The position numbers were made by a program, and so were the translations under genes. A stretch of DNA of 40,185 bases from Parcubacteria group bacterium GW2011_GWC2_42_12. Its GTDB lineage: Bacteria; Patescibacteriota; Patescibacteriia; Patescibacteriales; GWC2-42-12. The stretch covers positions 1 to 40,185 of the forward strand of contig LCCP01000017.1 of the NCBI GenBank assembly GCA_000997945.1. Reading direction: 5' to 3'. This document shows, piece after piece, positions 6,616 to 29,815 of this stretch. Within the stretch, counting starts at the first letter, position 1. Each line of letters starts with the position of its first letter. The notes under the pieces were generated by a model. The model worked only from the letters and a program-made list of their open reading frames with translations. It searched no databases and was not told where the DNA came from.

Positions 6616-6702
6616 AATTCTTCAGTTTAATATTTTCTTATGCCATTTTTTGAGTTAATTGTAGCCGTATATTCGGTGTTGTGCGATGTTTCGGTCTGCG
6701 CG

Positions 6703-7023
6703 TTAAAACGAGACAACTTTATCGCTTTCTTTTACTATTTCGTGTAAATCTTTCATGGTTGAAATAGGGCACATTTGCGAGCCTTCCGATTCGCGGCTCT
6801 TTAAACATGTACCGCAGGCAAAAATTTTTCCATTATTACTAAGAAATAATTTCGCCTGTTCTTTAATGTTAAATTTTTTGCTATTAAGAGCTTCATATTC
6901 TACTCCCTTTGCTAGCAAAAAGATTTTTACCAAATTACCTTCTTTGAGCGAAAAATTTGCGAATCGAAAAGCATTCCATACAGTTTCAGCGTCATTTGAG
7001 TAGATAATAATTCCTAGTTTCAT
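6703..7023 (-). CDS. DsrE/DsrF-like sulfur-relay family protein (leftmost possible cassette)
   Basis: MKLGIIIYSNDAETVWNAFRFANFSLKEGNLVKIFLLAKGVE...FACGTCLKSR is the DsrE fold pattern with CGTC. Confidence 0.75.
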   Translation of the reverse strand: MKLGIIIYSNDAETVWNAFRFANFSLKEGNLVKIFLLAKGVEYEALNSKKFNIKEQAKLFLSNNGKIFACGTCLKSRESEGSQMCPISTMKDLHEIVKESDKVVSF

Positions 7024-7050
7024 ATTTATAAAGTTAATGTTAAGTATTTA

Positions 7051-7086
7051 GCATAGTCGAAAAGGAGCGAGCGATTTCGGCATAAC
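7051..7086. repeat. Internally deleted copy of the array repeat
   Basis: gcatagtcGAAAAGGAGCGAGCGATTTCGGCATAAC equals the repeat right end with the segment between its two GGAGCGAGCGA direct repeats removed. Confidence 0.8.
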
Positions 7087-7152
7087 GTATCGGCGTATCT
7101 GAAGTTTTAATGCTTTTTTATTTTTCTCTAATTTTAGATATTATTTTAACTC

Positions 7153-7180
7153 TTGACAACCCTGTCAAATCTGTTATACT
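7153..7180 (+). promoter_or_regulatory. sigma70-like promoter of ncRNA copy 1
   Basis: TTGACA (7153-7158), 16 nt spacer, TATACT (7175-7180). Confidence 0.75.
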
Positions 7181-7183
7181 GAT

Positions 7184-7391
7184 AATGTCGAATACGGATT
7201 CTACTGAACTCCCGAAGTCCGAGACCCTAAGGGGGATCGGGCTTTTTGTTTTGTAAAATTTATGATAAAATTTTTATGTGGAGTTTAAGGGGCTACCTCA
7301 CGGTGAGGAATCCGTATTCGACATTCGGATAGAGGGGTTCAATACCCCTTGGCTCCACGTCAGAAACCATCTCAAAAGCGAGGTGGTTTTT
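7184..7391 (+). ncRNA. Candidate structured RNA (array RNA) copy 1 with tRNA/tmRNA-like 3' domain
   Basis: AATGTCGAATACGGATTC (7184-7201) perfectly complements GAATCCGTATTCGACATT (7308-7325). T-arm-like AGGGG-TTCAATA-CCCCT (7333-7349), GTGGAG...CTCCAC (7278-7283 / 7353-7358), terminator at 7364-7391. Second copy at 9836-10042 has compensatory changes. Confidence 0.7.
7364..7391 (+). terminator. Intrinsic terminator of ncRNA copy 1
   Basis: AAACCATCTC-AAAAGC-GAGGTGGTTTTT. Confidence 0.75.
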
Positions 7392-7483
7392 GATTTGCCA
7401 AAAAATAAAATTAATTTTCAATAAACAGAAAAATTATAAATTTATTCTCATCTGCTCCGCCGGATACTCGTTGTTATATGATG

Positions 7484-7929
7484 TAAAAAACTAATAAATT
7501 ATTTAACTCTCAAAAAATCCCAAAAGTCGTATAGCACTATGCCAATATAAAGTAATATAACGAATCCAAAAATTATAGCATAGAAAGAGGGATAAATTAT
7601 TTTAACTGCCAGCACAATACTTTCAAGCAGTAATGCTATTAGTAGTATAAAAGTAAAAGTCGCACCATGTGAAAGCAGCTTTCCTGCCATTGAGTCAAGT
7701 TTGCTTTTTTCATAAGTAAAGGCAAAGTTTGCGAAACATACTGTTACAAGCAACATACTGATTATAAGAAGAAAGTCGCTTATTTGTCCCAGTCCAATTT
7801 GATTTATAGAGTTCGCAATAACAGGCCACAGGGAAGCTGCGATTATAACAATAATCGCGTTTTTTATTATATTTTTCTTAAAGGAATTTAATACCATAAT
7901 TTTTGTGGTTAAAATTTATTAGTTTTTTA
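7484..7929. repeat. Cassette-specific inverted repeat enclosing gene 7499-7897
   Basis: TAAAAAACTAATAAATT (7484-7500) versus AATTTATTAGTTTTTTA (7913-7929), perfect 17 bp. Confidence 0.75.
7499..7897 (-). CDS. Hypothetical multi-pass membrane protein (cassette gene)
   Basis: ORF with four hydrophobic segments (IIVIIAASLWPVI, FLLIISMLLVTVCFANF, FTFILLIALLLESIVLAV, YAIIFGFVILLYIGIVL). Confidence 0.6.
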   Translation of the reverse strand: MVLNSFKKNIIKNAIIVIIAASLWPVIANSINQIGLGQISDFLLIISMLLVTVCFANFAFTYEKSKLDSMAGKLLSHGATFTFILLIALLLESIVLAVKIIYPSFYAIIFGFVILLYIGIVLYDFWDFLRVK

Positions 7930-7930
7930 T

Positions 7931-8102
7931 TTCACATAATGGCTTCGGAATAAGCGAAGTGGCCGAAGGAATTTCGTAGCGGAGCGGAGAAATGCCGAAA
8001 GGCCATTTTGCGTATTCCGAGTTATGCCATTATGCCGAAAAGGAGCGAGCGACCCGAGCCGACCGCAGGAAGGCGAGGGGGAGCGAGCGATTTCGGCATA
8101 AC
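7931..8102. repeat. Long palindromic array repeat, copy 1
   Basis: TTCACATAATGGCTTCGGAATAAGCGAAGTGGCCGAAGG...TTATGCCGAAAAGGAGCGAGCGACCCGAGCC...GGAGCGAGCGATTTCGGCATAAC, repeated almost verbatim at 9557, 10697 and 11517. Confidence 0.93.
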
Positions 8103-8196
8103 GTATCGGCATATCTGATGTTTGCCGTAGCGTAGCGGAGGCAAATATGGGTAGAGGCTTTTGTAAAAAGCCGTAACCAGATATGCCTTGTTATAT
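8096..8196. other. attC-like palindromic site 2 (compact, 101 bp)
   Basis: GCATAAC (8096-8102)-GTAT-CGGCATATCTG (8107-8117) ... CAGATATGCC (8178-8187)-TT-GTTATAT (8190-8196). Inner hairpins TTTGCC..GGCAAA and GGCTTTTTAC-type. Confidence 0.7.
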
Positions 8197-9565
8197 GATG
8201 TATGCTTTTCTTTTTGTTCCGCCTTAGCGGAAACACTTTTCTGTAATGAACAAATTTTATTTTTGTCTTGGCGAGGGGCAGAGGGGCTTGGGGGTGAATG
8301 CCCCGAAGCTAAGACTCCTTATTCTGCGCGTTCAATGATGTTAACTATCCCATTATTTGCGTCCAACTCAACCAAATCGTCGCCTCGTAAAATTTTAGTA
8401 GCGTTTTTTGTGCCAACAATACATGGTTTTTTCATCTCTCTGGAAACAATAGCTGCATGGCAGATAATACCACCTTCATCCGTAACGAAAGCCGCAGCTT
8501 TAGTCATAGCTGGCATATAGGCTGGCGTGGTCATTGGAGAAACCAAAATGTCTCCCGGTGTTATTTTGTTTAATTGCTCTCGATTCATTACCACTTTTAC
8601 TTTACCCCGAGCTTGCCCAGGACTTGCCGAAAACCCTTTCAATTGAGTTGCGGTAGATAATATTTTCTTATCAATCAATTTATAACCGCGAACTTTTAAA
8701 ACAGTCGAAATTTCTTTCTTTGTAAACAACTGATTGGCGAAATAAGCACAACCGTCATTGCGTTTTTTAAACTCTGAAAAATTATATTTCTGTTTAGCTA
8801 TGACCGCTTTTTTTAATTCTTGAATAAGAAAAAATTTCATTAAATTTTTAGGCCAGCTTTTTTCTTTAGCAATCATGTGTAAATATTGGTATATCAGATC
8901 ACAAGCATCGTCAAAAAAAGTGTCGCCTTGGCGTAATTTAGTTGCTTTGTCTAAAATCTTTTTGGAAAATAATGATTTTTTTTCTGTTTTACCGCCATTT
9001 CATTCCAAGTCACGCACCAATAAGCCGGAATGAGGCCCGCCATGCCCTCTATAAATAAATTTTGGGTCTCTTTTATTTTATTGACTGCTTTTAGGCTTTT
9101 CACTGAGCTTATTGGTTGCACTTTTTCTTTCTTTAGCTTCTTGCCTATCTTGATATACCTATCAAATTCAGCTAAAAGACGCTTGGTGTTTTTGGGCTCT
9201 TTTGCCCAGCGTGATATGGCCTTAGGTAGTGTGTCAAAGAAAAGCTGAGTTGCGCGCCAACTTTCAACAGCGCCATTTTGAAAAATATAAATTGGTTCCG
9301 GAAATTTAACTTCAAAATCAAAAACTCTAGGTATAGAATCAGTAAAATATTTATACCATGCGGCAATCAAAATAAACGGAGCATCACGTGTCATGACTTT
9401 TTCGTATTTGATGATTTTTCTTGTCATATTAAAATCGTTTTCTGAGTGAGGTCACGAGCGAAGAAAACACCATATACACCCCTCTATAAAAATTAAAAAT
9501 AAAATTTGTCCATTATAGAAAAGTGTTAGGTATTAGCCGTAAAAAGAAAAGCATATTTCATATAA
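8191..9565. repeat. Cassette-specific inverted repeat enclosing the PEP-utilising-domain gene
   Basis: TTATATGATGTATGCTTTTCTTTTT (8191-8215) versus AAAAAGAAAAGCATATTTCATATAA (9541-9565), 23 of 25 positions complementary. Confidence 0.75.
8319..9427 (-). pseudogene. PEP-utilising enzyme mobile-domain protein, split by a frameshift at an 8-nt homopolymer
   Basis: ORF 8951-9427 and ORF 8319-8876 join in sense across T8 at 8976-8983: ...MAVKQK / KSLFSKKILDKATKLRQGDTFFDDACDLIYQYLHMIAKEKSWPK. GFSASPGQARGKVKVV...GDILVSPMTTPAYMPAMTKAAAFVTDEGGIICHAAIVSREMKKPCIVGT is the phosphohistidine domain. Confidence 0.75.
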
Positions 9566-9738
9566 TGGCTTCGGAATAAGCGAAGTGGCCGAAGGAATTT
9601 CGCAGCGGAGCGGAGAAATGCCGAAAGGCCATTTTGCGTATTCCGAGTTATGCGAAGTCGCGCCATTATGCCGAAAAGGAGCGAGCGACCCGAGCCGACC
9701 GCAGGAAGGCGAGGGGGAGCGAGCGATTTCGGCATAAC
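9557..9738. repeat. Long palindromic array repeat, copy 2
   Basis: Near-identical to 7931-8102, with extra GCGAAGTCGC between the two hairpins. Confidence 0.93.
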
Positions 9739-9804
9739 GTTTCGGCGTATCTGAAGTTTTAATGCTTTTTTATTTTTGTCTAATGTTAGATACTTTTTAA
9801 TCTA

Positions 9805-9832
9805 TTGACAAGCTGGCTTGTTGTGTTATACT
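9805..9832 (+). promoter_or_regulatory. sigma70-like promoter of ncRNA copy 2
   Basis: TTGACA (9805-9810), 16 nt spacer, TATACT (9827-9832). Confidence 0.75.
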
Positions 9833-9835
9833 AAT

Positions 9836-10042
9836 AATGTTAAGTGCGGAATCTGTTGAACTCCAAAGTCCGAAACCCTAACGGGGATCGGGCTTTTTGT
9901 TTTGTAAAATTTATGGTAAAATTTTTTTGTGGAGTTGAGGGGCCACCTCATGGTGAGGGTTCCGCACTTAACATTCGGAATTGAGGGGTTCGATACCCCT
10001 TGGCTCCACCTCAGAAACCATCTTAAAAGCGAGGTGGTTTTT
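9836..10042 (+). ncRNA. Candidate structured RNA (array RNA) copy 2
   Basis: ATGTTAAGTGCGGAATC (9837-9853) pairs with GGTTCCGCACTTAACAT (9958-9974). T-arm AGGGG-TTCGATA-CCCCT (9984-10000), GTGGAGTT (9929-9936) with GGCTCCAC (10002-10009), terminator AAACCATCTT-AAAAGC-GAGGTGGTTTTT. Confidence 0.7.
10015..10042 (+). terminator. Intrinsic terminator of ncRNA copy 2
   Basis: AAACCATCTTAAAAGCGAGGTGGTTTTT. Confidence 0.75.
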
Positions 10043-10098
10043 GATTTACCGTATTGAAAAATAAAAAAGCATTAAAATTTGCGTGAGCGAGCGTTAAG

Positions 10099-10415
10099 AA
10101 TAAAATTATTTTTTTATTTTCCCTAGTAATATATGATAACTTGTTCCAGTAGATATTAAGCTTGATGAATTATTTTTTTCCGTATGCAGAATTGTATATT
10201 CTCCAGAATTGAGTTTTTCACTAATTTTATTATTTTGATATTCATTAATTTTGTCACTAAATAATTCGTGTAGTTCAATGTCGTATATATTTCGATGTTT
10301 CCACCAGCCCTTAATAACAATAACAGATGTTATAGTTAAAGCTACAATTGAAAATAGCAGAGAAATTAGTTCCATGAGATTATTTTTGATAAATTGCATA
10401 AAAAATAATTTTATT
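10099..10415. repeat. Cassette-specific inverted repeat enclosing gene 10106-10399
   Basis: AATAAAATTATTTTTT (10099-10114) versus AAAAAATAATTTTATT (10400-10415), perfect 16 bp. Confidence 0.75.
10106..10399 (-). CDS. Hypothetical single-pass membrane protein (cassette gene)
   Basis: 97 aa ORF, N-terminal TM segment LMELISLLFSIVALTITSVIVIKGWW. Confidence 0.55.
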   Translation of the reverse strand: MQFIKNNLMELISLLFSIVALTITSVIVIKGWWKHRNIYDIELHELFSDKINEYQNNKISEKLNSGEYTILHTEKNNSSSLISTGTSYHILLGKIKK

Positions 10416-10440
10416 TAGCTCGCGAACCAGATACGCCGTG

Positions 10441-10677
10441 TTAGGCGATGTTATTAAACTTTTTATTACTTTCCTCTTCCTCTAACTTTTTGGCAACTTT
10501 TATTGCTACATGCGATCTTACGGTCATAAAATACCAAAAATACAGACCAGCAACTACAATTACAACTAATAATGTGTTAATTGTTACATCTTCAAAAGAA
10601 TATGATATTTTTGCAATAACTATTAGTAAAATCCATAACTTAGGAGTTAAAAATTGCCAAAAAAATCTAAAAAATAA
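10441..10677 (-). CDS. Hidden small membrane protein ORF without a standard start codon (not in ORF track)
   Basis: Minus strand reads LFFRFFWQFLTPKLWILLIVIAKISYSFEDVTINTLLVVIVVAGLYFWYFMTVRSHVAIKVAKKLEEEESNKKFNNIA*. The stop TAA lies inside the GTTAGGC core box. Confidence 0.5.
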   Translation of the reverse strand, partial: LFFRFFWQFLTPKLWILLIVIAKISYSFEDVTINTLLVVIVVAGLYFWYFMTVRSHVAIKVAKKLEEEESNKKFNNIA

Positions 10678-10696
10678 TTAAGAAATTTCTGGCTAT

Positions 10697-10869
10697 TTCA
10701 CATAATGGCTTCGGAATAAGCGAAGTGGCCGAAGGAATTTCGTAGCGGAGCGGAGAAATGCCGAAAGGCCATTTTGCGTATTCCGAGTTATGGCCATTAT
10801 GCCGAAAAGGAGCGAGCGACCCGAGCCGACCGCAGGAAGGCGAGGGGGAGCGAGCGATTTCGGCATAAC
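10697..10869. repeat. Long palindromic array repeat, copy 3
   Basis: Near-identical to copy 1; ends TTTCGGCATAAC. Confidence 0.93.
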
Positions 10870-11043
10870 GTATCGGCACATGCGAAGTTGCGCCGTGAAT
10901 TATTGAATTAAATGTTAATTATCGCCTATCTTGATTATATCACTAAACTTGCCATTTCGTCAGCGCAATTTGGGTTGAGGAAATTTTGCACTCCTTGAAA
11001 TATAATTGCGCAAAATTTCTGAACCGCATGTGCCGTGTTGTGC
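10863..11043. other. attC-like palindromic site 4 (181 bp)
   Basis: GCATAAC (10863-10869), CGGCACATGCG (10874-10884) ... CGCATGTGCCG (11025-11035), GTTGTGC (11037-11043). Inner hairpin GAAATTTTGC ... GCAAAATTTC. Confidence 0.7.
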
Positions 11044-11105
11044 GATGTTTTAAAAAACAAACATTCTTTATAAAAAAGAGCCTTTTTGAAATTTTTTGGC
11101 TGGGC

Positions 11106-11134
11106 TTGACAGGCCGTCTGTTTTCTGCTATACT
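11106..11134 (+). promoter_or_regulatory. Strong sigma70-like promoter
   Basis: TTGACA (11106-11111), 17 nt, TATACT (11129-11134); followed by a 5' UTR hairpin AACGC..GCGTT. Confidence 0.8.
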
Positions 11135-11193
11135 AATTTGAACGCTAATTTTGGCGTTGAATTGTTCCAAAAAACCACGAAGGAGGAAGTGCG

Positions 11194-11394
11194 ATGGAAG
11201 AGCTGACGATCGGAACTAAAGTGGTGTTGAATGTTGGTGGCAAAGAAAGTATCGCAAGAGTCACCGACAAAAACGGTACTATGATGGAGCTGACAACAGA
11301 GAGTGGCGAAACTTTGTTCATGGAGCTTCAGAAAGCAGGGGATGGTTGGGAATTGGTCCCCAACACCCGTATGGTGAAGATGACTACCCTGTAG
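11194..11394 (+). CDS. Hypothetical 66-aa protein (cassette gene)
   Basis: AGGAGG upstream of ATG at 11194, strong promoter, downstream hairpin terminator. MEELTIGTKVVLNVGGKESIARVTDKNGTMMELTTESGETLFMELQKAGDGWELVPNTRMVKMTTL. Confidence 0.75.
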   Translation: MEELTIGTKVVLNVGGKESIARVTDKNGTMMELTTESGETLFMELQKAGDGWELVPNTRMVKMTTL

Positions 11395-11423
11395 TACTTC
11401 ACCTACATCACATCTCGCCAATA

Positions 11424-11459
11424 GCTCGTTCAAGGATAAAAACCTTGCGGGCTTTTTTC
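11424..11459 (+). terminator. Putative intrinsic terminator after 11194-11394
   Basis: GCTCGTTCAAGG-ATAAAAA-CCTTGCGGGC-TTTTTT. Confidence 0.65.
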
Positions 11460-11516
11460 TTTTCCAAAAAAATTTCAAAAAGGCTCTATAAAAAGATAAA
11501 ATGTTTATTTTTTAAA

Positions 11517-11705
11517 ATTTCGTACAATGGCTTCGGAATAAGCGAAGTGGCCGAAGGAATTTCGCAGCGGAGCGGAGAAATGCCGAAAGGCCATTTTGCG
11601 TATTCCGAGTTATGCGAAGTCGCGCGAAGCCATTATGCCGAAAAGGAGCGAGCGACCCGAGCCGACCGCAGGAAGGCGAGGGGGAGCGAGCGATTTCGGC
11701 ATAAC
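11517..11705. repeat. Long palindromic array repeat, copy 4 (recombinase-proximal)
   Basis: Near-identical to the other copies; ends TTTCGGCATAAC at 11705. Confidence 0.93.
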
Positions 11706-11816
11706 TCTCTATTATACGAACAATTTTTTAGAATTTGCTTTAGTTTGTATATTATGCGAAATTATGATATTATTTATTTAAAATAATCTCGCTAATATTA
11801 TTATAGTTTAAAATCT

Positions 11817-12638
11817 ATGAAATTGGAAGAGCTTTTAAAAAGAATAGAAAACGAACTTAAACTTAGAAACTATAGCCGAAAAACTATTAAGAGCTATTTA
11901 ATTTGCCTGGCGGACTATTTTCGCTATATTAAAAATGTCGTAAAAGATCCTGATATCGGCCTGATTAAAAGATACCTTCTGGAAAAACAGGATAGGGGGC
12001 AGGCCTCGCAGACCATCAATCTTTATTTAAACGCCATAAAATATTTCTACCGAGAGATTTTTAAAAATAATGTTCCCCTGGATATTAAATTTGCCAAAAC
12101 GGCGAGCAAGTTGCCCGTCGTCTTGTCTAAGAAAGAAATAGAAAAAATAATTGATTCAATCAGCAACAAAAAACACATGCTACTTATCGCTCTCTCGTAT
12201 GGGGCGGGTTTTAGGGTAAGCGAAGCCATAAATTTAAAAATAAAAGATGTGAATTTGGCTGAATTAACCATTCATCTTAAGGGCGCTAAAGGTAATAAAG
12301 ACCGGCTAACGATTTTTCCCGAAAGAGTCAAGGCGGGGCTGGCTGAAATTATGGCCTTGCGCGATAAAAACGATTTTGTCTTTGCCAGTGAACGGGGCGG
12401 GCATTTAACCGAGCGGTCGGCGCAAATGGTATTTGAAAATGCTTTGAAAAGATGCCATATTAATAAAGAAGCCACTTTTCATTCCTTACGGCATAGTTTT
12501 GCCACGCATCTCTTAGAAAACGGCGTGGATGTGCGCTATGTTCAGGAACTCCTGGGCCATGCTAATATTAGGACTACGCAAATTTATACCAAAGTGACTA
12601 ATCCAAGTTTAAAAAAGATAAAGAGTCCGCTGGAATAA
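11817..12638 (+). CDS. Tyrosine recombinase/integrase, Xer/IntI-like
   Basis: SYGAGFRVSEAINLKIKDV, TFHSLRHSFATHLLENGVDVRYVQELLGHANIRTTQIYTKV contain the R...HxxR...H...Y catalytic set. No obvious IntI-specific insertion before the HSLRH box. Confidence 0.92.
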   Translation: MKLEELLKRIENELKLRNYSRKTIKSYLICLADYFRYIKNVVKDPDIGLIKRYLLEKQDRGQASQTINLYLNAIKYFYREIFKNNVPLDIKFAKTASKLPVVLSKKEIEKIIDSISNKKHMLLIALSYGAGFRVSEAINLKIKDVNLAELTIHLKGAKGNKDRLTIFPERVKAGLAEIMALRDKNDFVFASERGGHLTERSAQMVFENALKRCHINKEATFHSLRHSFATHLLENGVDVRYVQELLGHANIRTTQIYTKVTNPSLKKIKSPLE

Positions 12639-29672: not shown

Positions 29673-29700
29673 TTGACAGCCTGAGCGATTATGTTAATAT
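29673..29700 (+). promoter_or_regulatory. sigma70-like promoter of rplJL
   Basis: TTGACA (29673-29678), 16 nt, TAATAT (29695-29700). Confidence 0.75.
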
Positions 29701-29709
29701 AAATTTAAT

Positions 29710-29815
29710 AGTCGCAGACAGCAGGTGCCAAAATTAGGCGTAAATCCTGCCGAGACCAAGCTAATTTTAGCTATTTTAGAGTCTGCGCATTAGGCAGATT
29801 TTTTTTATTAAAAAA
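29710..29815 (+). promoter_or_regulatory. Ribosomal protein L10 leader with overlapping attenuator hairpin
   Basis: GTCGCAGACAGCAGGTGCC...AAATCCTGCCGAGACC...GTCTGCGC matches the L10 leader pattern. TCTGC-GCATTAG-GCAGATTTTTTTT forms a terminator. Confidence 0.85.

Follow-up and report, generated by a model that had tools for sequence, protein, structure and literature searches.

A probable chromosomal integron in Patescibacteria whose recombinase lacks the I2 insert of IntI

Integrons are a classic device for the capture and reshuffling of genes. In IntI integrons, such as those of class 1 and the Vibrio integron with VchIntIA and its VCR attC sites, a divergent recombinase gene and an attI site precede tandem cassettes that each hold one open reading frame (ORF) and one imperfect-palindrome attC. 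Strand choice is decided by extrahelical bases on the R''-L'' arm of the IntI attC (PMC2727003). The origin of integrons has been traced to a single event in which a Xer-like enzyme acquired the I2 helix, and "the lack of intermediates" is named as an obstacle (PMC7790495); a passage of the same source that cites Messier and Roy reports I2 to be necessary for cassette capture by IntI. Here we describe a locus with the same layout in Parcubacteria group bacterium GW2011_GWC2_42_12 (contig LCCP01000017.1 of assembly GCA_000997945.1), in a stretch of 40,185 nucleotides that is referred to as the window. An array at about 6.66-11.7 kb runs in the minus-strand direction away from a divergent tyrosine recombinase gene (11817-12638), with an attI-like site between the two. 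We conclude that this locus is very probably a chromosomal integron of a Patescibacterium and one case of a widespread platform. Like the archaeal integrons (PMC9668308), it places integron architecture outside the usual bacterial phyla and was found by genome mining.

The window belongs to a draft genome of 1.03 Mb in 48 contigs that is 90% complete. For comparison we used 74 loci encoding relatives of the recombinase, 54 of them of the Patescibacteria type, and a held-out set of 19 further loci, for which longer stretches were used to reveal arrays. In a second genome set, 6/39 loci had a site next to the gene, with flanks too short to reveal arrays. Nearly all of these data are metagenome assemblies. 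Site anatomy, covariation, cassette boundaries, linkage, and array turnover are shown by the sequences; the action of the enzyme, the strand chosen, the position of the cut, and the role of the outer arms are inferred.

The sequence-only reading of the window had proposed attC-like sites whose arms differ from site to site and yet remain complementary. Arms CGGCATATCTG (8107) and CAGATATGCC (8178) pair at 10/11 positions, and CGGCGTATCTG (9743) with CAGATACGCCG (10428) and CGGCACATGCG (10874) with CGCATGTGCCG (11025) pair at all 11. Among random pairs of 11-mers drawn from this region, 11/11 is reached at a rate of about 1e-5 and at least 10/11 at about 8.5e-5, which places the observed pairing far above chance. 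A search for the full pattern of box, spacer, paired arms, and box gave three matches on the plus strand of the window and none on the minus strand, and 100 Markov-resampled windows contained no match. A fourth arm pair (7091 and 7461-7471) is degraded, with 7/11 positions paired. A repeat of about 170 bp at 7927, 9554, 10694, and 11517 combines another attC with a mini-cassette devoid of ORFs; beyond these copies, the repeat recurs in the genome only as a partial copy at 7064.

Hairpins of this kind might instead be terminators, REP/MITE-like elements, or some other nonmobile repeat family that lies beside the recombinase by chance. T-rich runs do follow some arms, and the 170-bp repeat is GC-rich with near-identical copies. 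Against this stand the genome-wide site search, which matched this array only (3 matches versus 0 for a reversed-pattern control), and the recurrence of the same anatomy, with exact box boundaries, in many distant genomes, again on the upstream side of the recombinase. We consider this explanation scarcely credible.

The attC-like reading was borne out well beyond the window, since the same anatomy lies beside homologous recombinases in dozens of genomes. On the recombinase strand, a T box (TTTCnnnnAAC) and the spacer G-T-W-T precede the first 11-nt arm. Next come GA(A/T)G, a variable branched segment, and the second arm, complementary to the first; a single T separates this arm from a G box (GTTnnnnGATGT), beyond which lie a gene body and another T box. 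The final T box of the array adjoins a conserved TCnTTTATATGCGAA... that lies directly before the recombinase. This attI-like junction is conserved across 47 aligned loci, in which the four variable bases just past the junction occur in 29 variants. A search based on complementarity yielded 55 sites, 55/55 on the recombinase strand; the single T on the right side was present in 51/55 and a left spacer starting with GT in 47/55. Pairing is not independent in these 55 sites because they were selected by it, and we therefore added an unselected test in which sites were chosen by their end motifs only. On the recombinase versus the opposite strand, 71 versus 6 left motifs, 68 versus 10 right motifs, and 45 versus 0 pairs were picked. 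At least 9/11 Watson-Crick arm pairs were found in 33/45 of these pairs (24% with swapped arms), and 11/11 in 24/45 (5% with swapped arms); the other 12/45 include nearest-motif mispairings and degraded sites. The held-out loci gave 34 versus 0 left motifs, 27 versus 0 right motifs, and 23 versus 0 pairs on the two strands, with 17/23 pairs complementary.

Several compensating base pairs were found at arm columns 1-5, 9, and 10. Columns 6-8 (T-A-T) are nearly fixed, and the GA(A/T)G that follows the 11-bp arm is conserved. The proposal that selection acts on single-strand folding rather than on sequence holds for the fully compensated columns and has to be qualified at T-A-T and GA(A/T)G, where sequence is kept as well.

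The ends of the cassettes revealed a second pattern of covariation. In the window, covariation of the outer boxes GTTnnnnGATGT and TTTCnnnnAA(C/T) spans a cassette body and not an attC. Over all bodies, the variable bases of the G box complement those of the T box at the opposite end of that body at 4/4 positions in 14/28 bodies (random, 7%); the mean match of the four bases is 3.1 within a body, 2.0 at random, and 1.96 across an attC. Boxes also matched in 8/13 held-out cassettes. Such pairing within a cassette is expected if boundary bases move with it, as in IntI integrons. The outer boxes had initially been taken for the boxes of a folded attC; the attC assignment stood, and the boxes of one attC proved to be unpaired with each other in the array.

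Since matching ends could not by themselves show which box is cut, we examined linkage. Among 18 homologous attC pairs from different genomes, the flank was shared on the G (GTTnnnnGATGT) side in 8/18 and on the T (TTTCnnnnAAC) side in 0/18. A cassette therefore consists of an attC and the body on its G side, and the T box would be the one exchanged. Translated into integron terms on the basis of this linkage, T would be R', G would be R'', the plus strand would be the bottom strand, and the array would be read on the minus strand from attI.

Orthologous loci differ in cassette content and not in cassette orientation. Loci L031 and L033 have syntenic flanks, 6.6 kb long on the left of the platform and more than 8 kb long on the right, that are 79-90% identical; the roughly 3.3 kb between these flanks have nothing longer than 150 bp in common, as unrelated arrays. 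In L019 the left flank is shared, and homology with L033 stops exactly at AAC. These comparisons bear on the idea that the inverted repeats flank invertible gene segments, flipped by the recombinase in phase variation, rather than mobile cassettes. Each body does have its own terminal inverted repeats, and 4/22 ORFs are reversed; on the other hand, all attC sites share one orientation, as do 18/22 ORFs (the array direction), attI is constant at one end only, and orthologous loci show no change of orientation. We judge inversion to be very improbable. Contig ends lie within 350 bp upstream of the recombinase gene in 17/54 Patescibacteria-type loci and downstream in 0/54, as unassembled repeat arrays would cause.

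Most bodies hold a single ORF, and their Pfam assignments are unrelated: sodium/calcium exchanger, DNA methylase, methyltransferase, EamA transporter, peptide deformylase, phosphotransferases, HD domain, and glycosyltransferase. One cassette-body ORF (L045:3011-4156) resembles an IS200-type transposase, as judged by eye. A leader, AGAGGGG...GTGTTTTCTCCGCT...GAAAACGATT, is found just 5' of a cassette ORF in the window (9437-9500, minus strand) and in the upstream regions of L007, L008, L023, L035, and L040; it is possibly a small leader peptide or a hairpin.

Beyond the boxes, complementarity between the two ends of a body continues for another 9-50 bp, in sequence private to each cassette. These outer arms exceed the 95% null level in 18/28 bodies and in 7/10 held-out bodies (for example, AATTTCCATGAGCTT in L177). 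In the window, this second covarying set (I1, I5, I6, and I9) reaches 20-54 bp past the boxes into each cassette. We know of no counterpart in IntI cassettes. Outer arms adjoin different attC sites in the array, and in an excised circle they would extend the stem of one attC; they may help circles to fold or to re-insert.

The recombinase is XerA/IntI-like, as judged from its sequence, rather than a standard IntI. Its score exceeds the cut-off of NF040815 (XerA; 224 versus 220 bits) and falls below that of TIGR02249 (integron integrase; 208 versus 265 bits). The catalytic residues R133, K158, H222, R225, H248, and Y257 are invariant across 34 aligned sequences, and no other tyrosine recombinase was found in the source genome at its 90% completeness. 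Pairwise and multiple alignments agree that the approximately 50-residue I2 insert of IntI, which lies between the catalytic motifs, is absent. Alignment to VchIntIA (2a3v) falls into two blocks with a break at 182/193 versus 184/238, and the skipped IntI segment, 184-238, is the I2 region; IntI1 aligns to VchIntIA without such a break. The best match of the predicted fold is VchIntIA bound to attC (2a3v; Z 23.5, E 1e-18), ahead of XerA. This fold came from an alignment-based prediction (pLDDT 87.7); single-sequence prediction was poor (pLDDT 37).

In the tree, IntI forms its own branch (100/100), and Bacteroidota XerA is the neighbor of the Patescibacteria enzymes; a topology that unites IntI and the Patescibacteria family in one clade was not rejected (p-AU 0.23). 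I2 could have been lost or might never have been gained, or the system may have arisen separately. By sequence family the enzyme resembles XerA, the "site-specific tyrosine recombinase/integron integrase" family NF040815. Archaeal XerA is a chromosome-dimer resolvase, and to our knowledge no cassette array accompanies it. Unlike a housekeeping resolvase, the Patescibacteria gene is patchily distributed: matches with E values up to 1e-30 were found in 59/379 Patescibacteria genomes (arrays were checked in a subset of these), in 22/61 nearer genomes, and in 0/3 genomes of the same genus. A distribution of this kind speaks for horizontal spread or frequent loss rather than for a housekeeping function. 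The nearest relatives of the window enzyme are from Moranbacteria and other Patescibacteria. The reading frame of a Gracilibacteria homologue (L051:109-927) contains 12 TGA codons and stays open only if these are translated as glycine. Two further homologues (L013 and L043) lie on contigs binned as Cyanobacteria and Margulisiibacteriota, which are either misbinned or transferred beyond Patescibacteria. A second recombinase subfamily of about 40-45% identity (L123 and L124) also has attC-like repeats upstream, with contig ends close by.

These properties suggest how the platform could work. A cassette starts at TTnnnnGAAAT, continues through one gene body, and ends in its attC. As a single strand, the attC folds into a hairpin with an L stem of 11 bp that carries branched hairpins at its top; an unpaired spacer of 4 nt and 1 nt and the R boxes lie below this stem. 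The recombinase would bind the folded site and cut the plus strand (the "bottom strand" of integrons) in the TTTCnnnnAAC box next to AAC. Exchange of the cut strand with attI would insert a cassette, and exchange with another attC would excise a circle, in which the two boundary boxes and the private outer arms would meet and lengthen the attC stem by 9-50 bp.

Alternatively, the same array might be recombined as double-stranded Xer/dif-like sites, with the palindromes as two half-sites and folding incidental. The enzyme is XerA-like without I2, the extended 11-bp half-sites (TTTCnnnnAA and CTTCnnATA) resemble those of Xer, and IntI1 itself retains double-strand activity (PMC7790495, PMC4792948). 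Arm pairing, however, is kept while arm sequence varies, which double-stranded half-sites would not need, and a folded substrate is also suggested by the conserved bulge and the unequal spacers. In addition, AAC is all that attI and attC have in common at the junction, the next bases being TCnTT and GTWT, respectively. A second, double-strand exchange would therefore have to proceed without spacer homology, which favors the single-strand route. We regard the double-stranded alternative as unlikely, though well ahead of the other alternatives considered above.

The sites resemble those of IntI in their GTT/AAC crossover boxes, unequal unpaired spacer, and branched terminal structure. They differ in that the extra bases all lie on the R'-L' arm, where the spacer is 3-4 nt versus 1 nt opposite; an A(A/T) follows the stem in 47/47 distinct sites, and a single bulged base occurs on this arm in 14/55. 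An AA bulge followed by a GTT/AAC helix (34/47 sites) was also considered but is rivaled by a three-way junction in the folds, and we limit the claim to the conserved A(A/T). Counting extrahelical bases on each strand, as had been suggested for finding the recombinogenic strand, located the asymmetry and left two options for the strand: the bottom strand, read by the enzyme through a mirrored asymmetry, or the top strand, cut in a different way. Further differences from IntI integrons are the cassette-specific outer repeats and the payloads within attC loops, two attC sites of the window each enclosing an RNA locus.

Several observations weigh against a folded-site integron. The enzyme lacks an element reported to be necessary for cassette capture by IntI, and the structural asymmetry is on the arm opposite to that of IntI sites. 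The canonical R-box consensus is rare (RYYYAAC in 6/42 and GTTRRRY in 9/30), only AAC/GTT being kept in R boxes that extend to about 11 bp. The R' box ends in AAT instead of AAC in all four repeat-type attC sites of the window (7930-7940, 9556-9566, 10696-10706, and 11518-11528), which may lower their use. Finally, neither an excised circle nor a strain-level rearrangement was seen in these data, which are nearly all metagenome assemblies. Separately, R' boxes ending in AAT were noted at a few sites in other genomes. On balance we favor, with some reserve, an integron lineage whose I2-less integrase recombines attC sites as folded single strands and reads an asymmetry of opposite polarity, either an independent invention or a surviving pre-I2 stage, hidden because the profiles in use require IntI.

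Integron sites and arrays without I2 make the role of I2 in the origin of integrons directly testable. Patescibacteria have tiny genomes and few known means of gene acquisition; the platform would give them a dedicated gene-capture system, present in up to about 1 in 7 sampled genomes (an upper estimate from recombinase matches) and with its recombinase also in a lineage that reads TGA as glycine. This platform would probably go undetected in surveys built on IntI profiles, and its enzyme and sites would likewise largely escape the profiles of mining such as that which found the archaeal integrons. One groundwater survey applied IntegronFinder to metagenome-assembled genomes that included the candidate phyla radiation (CPR) (PMC12259885). 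In the open-access literature, with preprints and most subscription papers outside this scope, we found no report of integrons in Patescibacteria, Parcubacteria, or CPR.

The features assigned in the window are collected in Table 1.

Table 1. Proposed features of the array, attI-like site, and recombinase gene in the window, listed from the recombinase outward
Feature	Position	Strand	Basis
Tyrosine recombinase, 273 aa, divergent from array	11817..12638	+	Profile scores, catalytic residues, fold
attI-like site, TCTCTATTATACGAACAATTT...TTATGCGAA, between array and recombinase	11706..11790	-	Conserved in 47-locus alignment
R' box TTTCGGCATAAC, array/attI junction	11694..11705	-	47-locus junction alignment
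ORF-less mini-cassette body nearest attI, GTTATGC ... GCATAAC	11609..11705	-	
attC, repeat-type, TTTCGTACAAT ... GTTATGC	11518..11615	-	9/11 arm pairs, hairpin fold
Cassette body, private terminal inverted repeats I2, I6; ORF 11194-11394 (+)	11037..11528	-	
attC, GCATAAC-GTAT-CGGCACATGCG ... CGCATGTGCCG-T-GTTGTGC, 181 nt	10863..11043	-	11/11 arm pairs, branched single-stranded DNA fold
Repeat: attC + mini-cassette	10696..10869	-	99% identity to 7927 copy
Cassette body, GTTAGGCGATGT ... TTTCACATAAT; ORF 10448-10681 (+) uncertain	10440..10706	-	
attC, arms 9743/10428 11/11; loop holds RNA locus and ORF 10106-10399 (-)	9732..10446	-	
Two-RNA element copy 2 (antisense RNA + tRNA-like RNA), within attC loop	9758..10066	+	
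Repeat: attC 9556-9653 + mini-cassette 9647-9738	9556..9738	-	
Cassette body, GTTATATGATGT ... TTTCATATAAT, boxes matching	8190..9566	-	
attC, GCATAAC-GTAT-CGGCATATCTG ... CAGATATGCC-TT-GTTATAT, 101 nt, two inner hairpins	8096..8196	-	
Repeat: attC + mini-cassette	7930..8102	-	
Cassette body, GTTATATGATGT ... TTTCACATAAT, inverted repeat I5; ORF 7499-7897 (-)	7473..7940	-	
Two-RNA element copy 1, within degraded attC 7080-7479	7106..7420	+	
attC, degraded arms (7/11), carries RNA element copy 7106-7420	7080..7479	-	
Distal decayed cassette: attC right arm 6665-6676, GTTGTGCGATGT 6678-6689	6665..7079	-	

The body at 8190-9566 has long private inverted repeats (8191-8264 and 9495-9565) and two minus-strand ORFs, 8319-8876 (PEP-utilizer mobile domain) and 8951-9427. 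The decayed distal cassette retains a DsrE-like ORF (6703-7023, minus strand), and the matching left arm of its attC is no longer present.

The RNA locus in the two attC loops (7106-7420 and 9758-10066) comprises a promoter followed by two RNAs that each end in a terminator, the first short and the second tRNA-like. Over about 18 nt, the 5' tail of the short RNA is antisense to the anticodon-arm region of the tRNA-like RNA, and compensating changes preserve this pairing in nine other genomes. The locus stands alone in several relatives and adjoins attC arms in L149 and L147. It had no Rfam match at gathering scores. A tmRNA identity was rejected, as the scores were weak (21.8 and 14.7 bits versus a gathering score of 47) and a normal tmRNA is encoded elsewhere in the genome. 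A covariance model of the tRNA-like RNA proved unusable for charting its distribution, since its matches in 290/379 genomes mostly scored like ordinary tRNAs. The two RNAs could form an RNA-RNA toxin-antitoxin pair or include a tRNA mimic. Elsewhere in the window, a ribosomal protein L10 leader (Rfam RF00557) was found at 29694-29814 on the plus strand.

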